Shown here: piece by piece, positions 32,711-44,831 of the stretch
Position numbering within the stretch: the first letter of the stretch is position 1
How the letters are laid out: each line of letters begins with the position of its first letter
NCBI GenBank assembly: GCA_025360745.1
Contig: JANYBP010000001.1
Location: forward strand, 1-45,680
DNA: 45,680 nucleotides
Source: a bacterium
Lineage (GTDB): Bacteria > Verrucomicrobiota > Kiritimatiellia > CAIKKV01 > CAIYGI01
Reading direction: 5' to 3'
Program-made: the position numbers and the translations under genes
The notes under the pieces: model-generated
What the model was told of the DNA's origin: nothing
Databases searched by the model: none
What the model saw: the letters and a program-made list of their open reading frames with translations, nothing else

Positions 32711-32753
32711 CAAAACAAGTAATGGGTCACTGACATAGGGGAGGTGGACTAAA

Positions 32754-32830
32754 GACCGGCTAAAGCCGGTACACCAAACGGCATTACTTATTATTATTCC
32801 CGCGTTTGGTGTACCGCCTTCAGGCGGTCC
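32754..32830. repeat. Divergent REP pair (BIME-like)
   Basis: Two copies of the transposase-linked REP lie back to back around a 24-base AT-rich spacer. The left copy (32754-32779) is in minus orientation and the right copy (32804-32830) in plus orientation. Each has the head GTTTGGTGT followed by a hairpin: ACCGGC-TTTA-GCCGGT on the left and ACCGCC-TTCA-GGCGGT on the right. The stem bases change in pairs between copies. The other two copies flank the Y1 transposase gene at 44 kb. Confidence 0.85.
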
Positions 32831-32925
32831 CACCGCGTAACTGAACCATTACCCGGCACAGCGATGTCCAGATGTCAGGCAATGCGGTGAAATGAGTGCG
32901 GCACTCCCGCAATCAAGTCATCGTT

Positions 32926-43940: not shown

Positions 43941-44037
43941 GCGGGAAGTGTGCATCACGCCCATGAAGAAATGCAAGCGGCACTTGCAATCTGGCGCCCC
44001 ACAGCCTACAAAGGGGTCATTGGGCCATCCAATCTGT

Positions 44038-44063
44038 GTTTGGTGTACCGGCTTTAGCCGGTC
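44038..44063 (+). repeat. REP element, left flank of the transposase gene
   Basis: Head GTTTGGTGT followed by the hairpin ACCGGC-TTTA-GCCGGT and a final C. It points toward the transposase gene. It is the same element as at 32754-32779. Confidence 0.85.
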
Positions 44064-44069
44064 TTCTCT

Positions 44070-44137
44070 GGTTTGGCGAACAACCATGATGATAATTGCG
44101 GCTTGGAACGAGACCGCCTTAAGCGAATCGCCAAACC
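44070..44137 (+). promoter_or_regulatory. Inverted repeat in the transposase leader
   Basis: GGTTTGGCG (44070-44078) and CGCCAAACC (44129-44137) are perfect 9-base inverses, and the second ends 11 bases before the ATG at 44149. A partial REP-like GACCGCCTTAAG lies between them at 44112-44123. Pairing in the mRNA could limit translation of the transposase, or the inverse arms could be protein-binding sites. No experimental support is visible. Confidence 0.4.
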
Positions 44138-44148
44138 GCGGGTGCAAT

Positions 44149-44754
44149 ATGTACGACTGGCGTAAACTGAGCCAAAAGCAACGGTGCGACTTGCTTGCCT
44201 GGCGGCGGCGTATGCGATATCCATGGCACAGTCCGCAGCACCGCACCTGTGAACATGGCGTGTACCATATCACCGCGTCTTGCTATGAGCATAATCCGAT
44301 CATCGGGAATTCTCCAGCGCGAATGGCCGATTTTGCCACTACTCTTGCGGACTGCATTAATGCATATGCCAGTAATATTCACGCTTGGTGCGTCTTGCCG
44401 AATCATTATCATGTGTTGATCTCCACGGCTGAGGTCATTGCTTTGATCGGCGCTCTCGGTAAAATGCACGGACGCACGTCATTTGCATGGAACGGCGTAG
44501 ACGTGCTGCGCGGCCAGCAGGTTTGGTGCAAGGCGGTAGAACGCGGCATACGTTCCGATAGACATCACTGGGCCACAATGAATTATGTGCACAACAATCC
44601 GGTCCATCATGGGTATACAAGATATTGGCAGGAATGGCCATATTCCAGCGCCTCCGATTACCTTGCTTCAGTGGGAATTGCAGAGGCGCAACGCATATGG
44701 AATGAGTATCCGGTGTTGGACTACGGCAAGGGGTGGGACGATACTGAAATGTAG
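44149..44754 (+). CDS. REP-associated tyrosine transposase (RAYT, Y1/HUH family)
   Basis: A 201-residue Y1_Tnp-family protein. The metal-binding HUH motif is CVLPNHYHVLI (His 86 and His 88). The nucleophile is Tyr 146 in NYVHNNPVHHGY, followed by the conserved EWPYSSASDY. RAYTs cut and rejoin single-stranded REP hairpins and are considered the source of REP spread; they are usually single-copy and not themselves part of an insertion sequence. The gene lies between two REP copies in inverted orientation, which fits this role. The N-terminus WRKLSQKQRCDLLAWRRRMR and PWHSPQH are typical of the family in this phylum. I start at 44149; the frame is open upstream but would translate the REP (VWCTGFSRS). 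Confidence 0.92.
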   Translation: MYDWRKLSQKQRCDLLAWRRRMRYPWHSPQHRTCEHGVYHITASCYEHNPIIGNSPARMADFATTLADCINAYASNIHAWCVLPNHYHVLISTAEVIALIGALGKMHGRTSFAWNGVDVLRGQQVWCKAVERGIRSDRHHWATMNYVHNNPVHHGYTRYWQEWPYSSASDYLASVGIAEAQRIWNEYPVLDYGKGWDDTEM

Positions 44755-44775
44755 ACCTGGAGTATAGGGACGAAA

Positions 44776-44800
44776 ACCGCCTAAAGGCGGTACACCAAAC
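44776..44800 (-). repeat. REP element, right flank of the transposase gene
   Basis: Read on the minus strand: head GTTTGGTGT, hairpin ACCGCC-TTTA-GGCGGT. It starts 22 bases after the transposase stop and also points toward the gene. Relative to the left copy, both stem positions have swapped G for C together. Confidence 0.85.
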
Positions 44801-44831
44801 AACAATGCACGGCGGGTGATCGTTGAGAAAA

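Follow-up and report, generated by a model that had tools for sequence, protein, structure and literature searches.

A REPtron locus in a Kiritimatiellia genome whose detached REP pairs very probably multiplied as cargo of an IS66-type MITE

The copy number of REPINs is commonly taken as a record of RAYT activity. The stretch of DNA analyzed here (45,680 nucleotides, hereafter the window) belongs to a Kiritimatiellia-class MAG of 2.99 Mb that is 93.6% complete, and it carries a RAYT gene between two REPs as well as a detached REP pair at 32.8 kb. This arrangement raises the question of which enzyme spread the detached pairs. As set out below, we consider it very probable that the locus is a REPtron whose detached pairs were multiplied as cargo of an IS66-type MITE and not by the RAYT.

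The RAYT and its REPs

The RAYT product matches NF047646 (REP-associated tyrosine transposase) with an E value of 3.7e-21 and a score of 75.6 bits, slightly below the curated NCBIfam cut-off of 80, and gives a weak match to Pfam Y1_Tnp (E 2.8e-4). A profile built from this protein and seven relatives retrieved TnpA_REP of E. coli (4ER8) as its sole PDB match (E 2.5e-10). H86, H88 and Y146 showed no variation across the alignment of these eight sequences, in agreement with an earlier interpretation of the window (the sequence-only reading), which described the HUH histidines and Tyr 146 as intact. The gene is present in one copy in the genome. Judged from sequence, the assignment of the locus to the RAYT/REP systems (REPtrons), with an apparently intact enzyme, is supported.

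Table 1. Coordinates of the RAYT, the REPs and the MITE in the window
Feature	Position	Strand	Remarks
IS66-type MITE with REP pair, 134 bp	32719..32852	+	one of 16 copies
Left terminal inverted repeat	32719..32734	+	GTAATGGGTCACTGAC
Embedded REP 1	32755..32779	-	GGC-type stem; identical across the 13 copies compared
Spacer separating the two heads, 24 bp	32780..32803		from comparison of MITE copies
Embedded REP 2	32804..32828	+	GCC-type stem
Right terminal inverted repeat	32837..32852	-	GTAATGGTTCAGTTAC
REP upstream of RAYT	44038..44062	+	GTTT + guide GGTG + T + A + CCGGC-TTTA-GCCGG-T; head outward
RAYT / TnpA_REP-like HUH Y1 protein, 201 aa	44149..44754	+	HYH 86-88, Tyr146, W126-C127
REP downstream of RAYT	44776..44800	-	CCGCC-TTTA-GGCGG; head outward

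Exactly four copies of the head GTTTGGTGT are present in the window, at 32804-32812 and 44038-44046 on the plus strand and at 32771-32779 and 44792-44800 on the minus strand; 0.14 occurrences are expected in shuffled windows, and four copies were reached in 0 of 100 shuffles. Around the RAYT, the order is GTTTGGTGT-hairpin-RAYT-hairpin-ACACCAAAC, with the hairpins pointing inward and the heads outward, and the two REPs together constitute an inverted repeat of ~30 bp bracketing the gene. Each of them folds into a 6-bp hairpin (z about -5). In the 32.8-kb pair (32755-32828), unlike the RAYT-flanking REPs, the heads face one another. The stems are ACCGGC-TTTA-GCCGGT and ACCGCC-TTYA-GGCGGT, and their differences are paired (GGC/GCC versus GCC/GGC). 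Thus, the inward-pointing hairpins, the two further divergent copies, the head common to all four REPs and the stems varying only by paired changes, all described in the sequence-only reading, were recovered in our analysis, with the clarification that the RAYT-flanking heads point outward. The GT[AG]G tetranucleotide preceding the hairpin, which is canonical but not universal among RAYT systems, is absent at the window REPs, which have GGTG instead. The interval separating the left REP from the start of the RAYT contains, at 44070-44137, sequence resembling a decayed REP, consisting of an inverted repeat of 10 bp (GGTTTGGCGA/TCGCCAAACC) and ACCGCCTTAAG.

Allowing up to two mismatches, we counted 34 REPs in the own genome and 0 with a reversed-pattern control. 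The RAYT is thus flanked by genome-recurrent REPs: two lie beside it and the remaining 32 form 16 head-to-head pairs, every one of which combines a GGC-type with a GCC-type stem. A copy number near four, or a hairpin equally common in relatives lacking this RAYT, had been named as grounds for doubting a RAYT/REP system; the count is far from four, and the same-genus relative G001 has three REPs at the same threshold.

The genes of the window have ~81-91% DNA identity to those of G001, which lacks a RAYT at the corresponding locus and has ~80 bp of intergenic DNA there. This absence at the syntenic spot, together with the close bounding of the gene by the ~30-bp inverted repeat, would fit a recent insertion of the RAYT and its two flanking REPs (44037-44801) as a single-strand transposon. 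We regard such an insertion as unlikely, given that the gene has a single genomic copy, that the flanking REPs are part of REP arrays in relatives, and that the intergenic DNA is so diverged that the junction is unreadable and G001 may equally well have lost the gene. The divergence also led us to reject the G001 spot as a clean empty site of this unit.

Two other Y1 proteins of the own genome, on contigs C10 and C97, were rejected as partners of the REPs, since they are of a different kind (354-358 aa) and without a flanking window-type REP. The C10 protein (C10:1-1760, L034; 358 aa, Y1_Tnp) is flanked by several repeats of 33-36 nt (AAGTGCTATTTCGAGGGCTGACCCCCACCGCC); these include GGGGTCAG, which fits the TIRYT motif GGGGWSAS given in PMC3733652.

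REP pairs within an IS66-type element

The sequence-only reading overlooked the longer, TIR-bounded element that has the 32.8-kb pair at its core (Table 1). On extending the pairs outward, we found that the unit ends at GTAATGGGTCAGTGAC and GTAACTGACCCATTAC and that each of the 16 pairs lies within a MITE of ~134 bp or a truncated remnant of it; 13 keep most of both arms and three are truncated or rearranged, one end usually being kept in the truncated copies. A whole-element BLAST search of the own genome returned no MITE copies outside this set, and neither this search nor the REP pattern count revealed a free-standing REP pair in that genome. The RAYT was rejected as a part of the MITE, its 44.0-44.8 kb region being without a TIR. 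One truncated copy (L049) has its breakpoint precisely at the base of the REP, and this break could have been caused by the RAYT.

IS66 elements are characterized by ends starting with GTAA and by 8-bp target duplications. The ends of the MITE are of this type (GTAATGGGTCAGTKAC), and a target duplication was detected at length 8 only, with a mean match of 0.83 versus 0.26 for the null and 0.24-0.42 for other lengths. Across 12 copies, the 8-bp duplication is perfect in seven and matches at seven or more of the eight positions in nine; the window's own copy is without a clear one (2/8). In G001, the left flank of the 32.7-kb locus matches exactly up to position 32718, and the MITE is absent. 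The same ends bound full IS66 elements with a PF03050 transposase in G010 (1939 bp) and G029 (1886 bp), and the 16-nt MITE ends are up to 16/16 identical to those of the G029 element. The G010 element (C221:3578-5516, L142) consists of a 460-aa transposase and a DUF6788 ORF, with no tnpA/tnpB partners noticed among its listed ORFs.

In the own genome, at the completeness of its assembly, our search for an intact cognate IS66 yielded only a decayed fragment with stops (C95); multi-copy IS are frequently lost from MAG assemblies. No intact cognate IS66 was detected in G001 either, nor were the MITE ends found beside the two IS66 genes of that genome. Our searches thus did not recover the transposase responsible for moving the MITE. 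Among 346 genomes of the class, the IS66-end chimera occurs in the own genome and G001 only. G001 has one intact REP/MITE chimera, with guide GTAG (C31:7553-7676), and others partly decayed.

The arms of the MITE could also be regarded as long REPIN flanks resembling TIRs, in which case the RAYT would have mobilized the pairs as single-strand hairpins. The inverted pair does fold as a single long hairpin (with a z of -6.9, or -5.8 for the whole 134 nt), its heads match those of the REPs beside the RAYT, and the REPs are the most conserved part of the element. Nevertheless, a REPIN would end at its REPs and leave no target duplication; the unit found here ends at TIRs, where 8-bp duplications are unexpected for Y1 single-strand transposition. 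Additionally, the same TIRs bound IS66 genes and elements without window-type REPs, and the own genome has no pair outside the MITE. The TIRs and 8-bp duplications led us to reject amplification of the detached pairs by the RAYT, and we consider the classical REPIN model highly improbable. The earlier RAYT/REP interpretation holds for the identity of the REPtron and its apparently intact enzyme and is not supported for the dispersal of the detached pairs. Since these pairs are the interior of a MITE, their copy number is no evidence for RAYT activity.

In the mechanism that we propose for multiplication as MITE cargo, a chromosomal RAYT (an HUH/Y1 single-strand nuclease) would have two cognate REPs in which the guide GGTG replaces GT[AG]G. 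The outer ends would be recognized by an IS66-family DDE transposase, which would have inserted the whole 134-bp unit and made the 8-bp target duplication. This transposase presumably acted in trans and was later lost or is missing from the assembly. The RAYT may still nick the REPs at or near the guide, and either RAYT-REP recognition or another REP function may keep the embedded REPs uniform.

The MITE ends also surround other contents in the own genome, and they occur in relatives of several families. Other inverted palindromes (GGTAGGGCGCTCTCGCCGAGAGCGCC and kin) lie between IS66-type ends in four own-genome elements (L081, L088, L085 and L093, at C7:855-1014, C120:40670-40825, C41:1926-2079 and C78:43597-43690, respectively); several elements of this kind have perfect 8-bp duplications, and the same kind is present in G001 (L157). 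Shorter elements of 90-112 bp have these ends around hairpins such as CGCAAGCGTCCCGCTTGCG (C83:26727-26816 and C104:26074-26185 in the own genome, C110:18023-18112 in G001). At C33:5174-5348 (L084, own genome) the MITEs are nested, with IS66-type ends directly around a second TIR family (CAGCAATTCGCATTATGGCC) that in turn holds yet another palindrome pair.

Conservation of the embedded REPs and recurrence in a second MITE family

In the own genome, substitutions from the consensus amount to 5/650 in the embedded REPs versus 75/1076 in arms and spacer (p=6e-11), and to 1/550 versus 25/914 when the two oldest copies are left out (p=1e-4). The copies compared are, apart from one, those of the whole-element BLAST set, so selection by the REP pattern is unlikely to explain this conservation, which extends to the heads as well as the stems. 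The difference suggests an independent function for the embedded REPs, possibly as sites that the RAYT recognizes.

A different function is conceivable, in which the REP pair of the MITE is a terminator or mRNA stabilizer with no present link to the RAYT and the head is shared through common descent. G001, which has no close RAYT, does retain relics of this chimera, and other MITEs with the same TIRs contain unrelated inverted palindromes. However, a purely structural palindrome does not readily account for conservation that covers the heads and not the stems alone, nor for the guides, the intact G001 element having GTAG and the own-genome copies GGTG, as beside their own RAYT. We therefore hold a purely structural role to be somewhat unlikely.

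The association of REP pairs with MITEs recurs in G024, whose RAYT is 50% identical to that of the window and whose guide is GTAG. A pattern joining a second TIR (TIR2, TTCTCAKTATGGCC) to a REP gave 55 matches (at least 50 junctions) in this genome and 0 in the control. The TIR2 family has the sequence CAGCAATTCTCAKTATGGCC and a duplication of 9 bp. The G024 elements are mostly of 133 bp, and their duplication appears at 9 bp and at no other length (mean match 0.65 versus 0.27; 8/25 perfect); one stem differs between copies, mostly by paired changes. The G024 pairs were thus rejected as free-standing REP pairs, since they sit inside this second MITE. TIR2 elements with REPs are present in G015, G030 and G001 as well. 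REP pairs have been carried in DDE-type MITEs at least twice, in at least two TIR families. In G015, contigs C25, C139, C203 and C184 (L181-L183) contain REPs with guide GGTG (GTTGGTGTACCG...); the sole RAYT found in this assembly, which is 78% complete, is 33% identical to that of the window and has other palindromes flanking it.

We tentatively propose a two-enzyme partnership, which we consider possible but rather doubtful, in which DDE transposases would spread REP pairs via the TIRs, and the RAYT would select or homogenize the inner REPs through its guide-specific nuclease, an arrangement that would have arisen with at least two MITE families. If so, two unrelated classes of transposase would together maintain the REPIN populations of these bacteria. 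DDE-type elements with target duplications appear to have done, in at least two genomes, the spreading that REPIN copy number is taken to record for the RAYT; which enzyme moves REPINs can thus be tested in each genome separately.

Relation to known systems and the guide tetranucleotide

Based on published motifs, TnpA_Y1 subclass 2.8 (Quentin et al. 2018, PMC6006769) is closest to the window RAYT. Both have HYH, a proline-rich N-terminus, Y-x-x-NP near YIHxNP, a length of ~200 aa, a single gene copy and flanking REPs. Of the subclass motifs, HYH and PWHSPQH are present in the window RAYT, whereas W126-C127 deviates from W[YH], YVHNNP from YIHYNP, and the guide GGTG from GT[AG]G. Our scan of genome contigs gave at least 409 relatives of the RAYT, the best 80 of which include Verrucomicrobia, Lentisphaerae, Kiritimatiellae, Acidobacteria, KSB1, Calditrichota and Planctomycetota records, among others; for subclass 2.8, relatives outside Cyanobacteria are mentioned in PMC6006769. 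The RAYT is an ordinary member of this multi-phylum subfamily, which among the matches listed is common in Verrucomicrobia, Lentisphaerae, Kiritimatiellae, Acidobacteria and KSB1 records. The sequence-only reading, which assumed little was known of RAYT/REP systems in the Verrucomicrobiota/Lentisphaerota group, is corrected both by this distribution and by the REPs of PVC bacteria with GTAG, abundant in O. terrae, that are described in PMC3733652.

The REPtron Mb of Marinomonas (PMC8266576) has the same geometry, with a 5-bp stem, a TTTA loop and a tetranucleotide 2 nt from the stem foot. It differs in its guide (GTAG) and its group 3 enzyme, for which cleavage at CT or CA has been shown, whereas the window system is known from its sequence. 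The REPINs of P. fluorescens (Bertels and Rainey 2011, PMC3116915) are likewise inverted REP doublets able to form one long hairpin; they are bare doublets for which RAYT movement was inferred, whereas all doublets of the own genome lie in a TIR-bounded MITE or remnant with 8-bp duplications. IS66-family MITEs have the same GTAA... ends, 8-bp duplication and noncoding character; unlike them, the element described here encloses a RAYT-type REP pair whose conservation exceeds that of the rest of the element. The composite TIRs of P. putida and P. fluorescens RAYTs (Di Nocera et al. 2013, PMC3733652) join REP units to unrelated stem-loops in hundreds of copies; the passages concerned do not present them as DDE MITEs that make target duplications. 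No title or abstract on REP pairs inside DDE-type MITEs was found in our search, which covered a minority of the subscription literature; this is a slight indication that REP pairs as MITE cargo are new.

To follow the guide among relatives, we scored REPs of the design guide4-T-N-stem5-loop4-stem5, with a loop that is mostly TTYA, and required at least one within 400 bp of the RAYT. Such REPs were present at 72/81 loci, versus 0/81 shuffled flanks and 3/66 distal stretches. The guides are GGAG, GTAG, AGAG, GGTG, GTTG or TGAG, depending on the lineage. On a tree of 90 RAYTs, 68 of them with a clear guide, the guide changes 13 times, versus a mean of 36.9 and a minimum of 30 when shuffled. RAYT-REP coevolution was already known (PMC6006769); the subfamily provides a natural series of guides that follow the protein tree, useful for a REP recognition code. 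GGTG is common to L272 and to L195-L197, the nearest RAYTs among the matches listed (59, 59 and 56% identity), so the head is not peculiar to this system, as the sequence-only reading had supposed.

Among RAYTs with T as the third guide base, 7/7 have C or S at residue 127, versus 5/61 of those with A. If the cross-complementarity model of PMC8266576 is extended to such guides, cleavage would be predicted at CA instead of CT. By motif, C127 presumably occupies the position of Q95 in the E. coli protein, and we take it to be a candidate specificity residue. A code relating residue 127 to the third guide base is a suggestive lead that rests on two to three independent contrasts. In two relatives (L136 and L138, from G034 and G046), the heads of the RAYT-adjacent REPs are directed at the gene, the reverse of the arrangement in the window.
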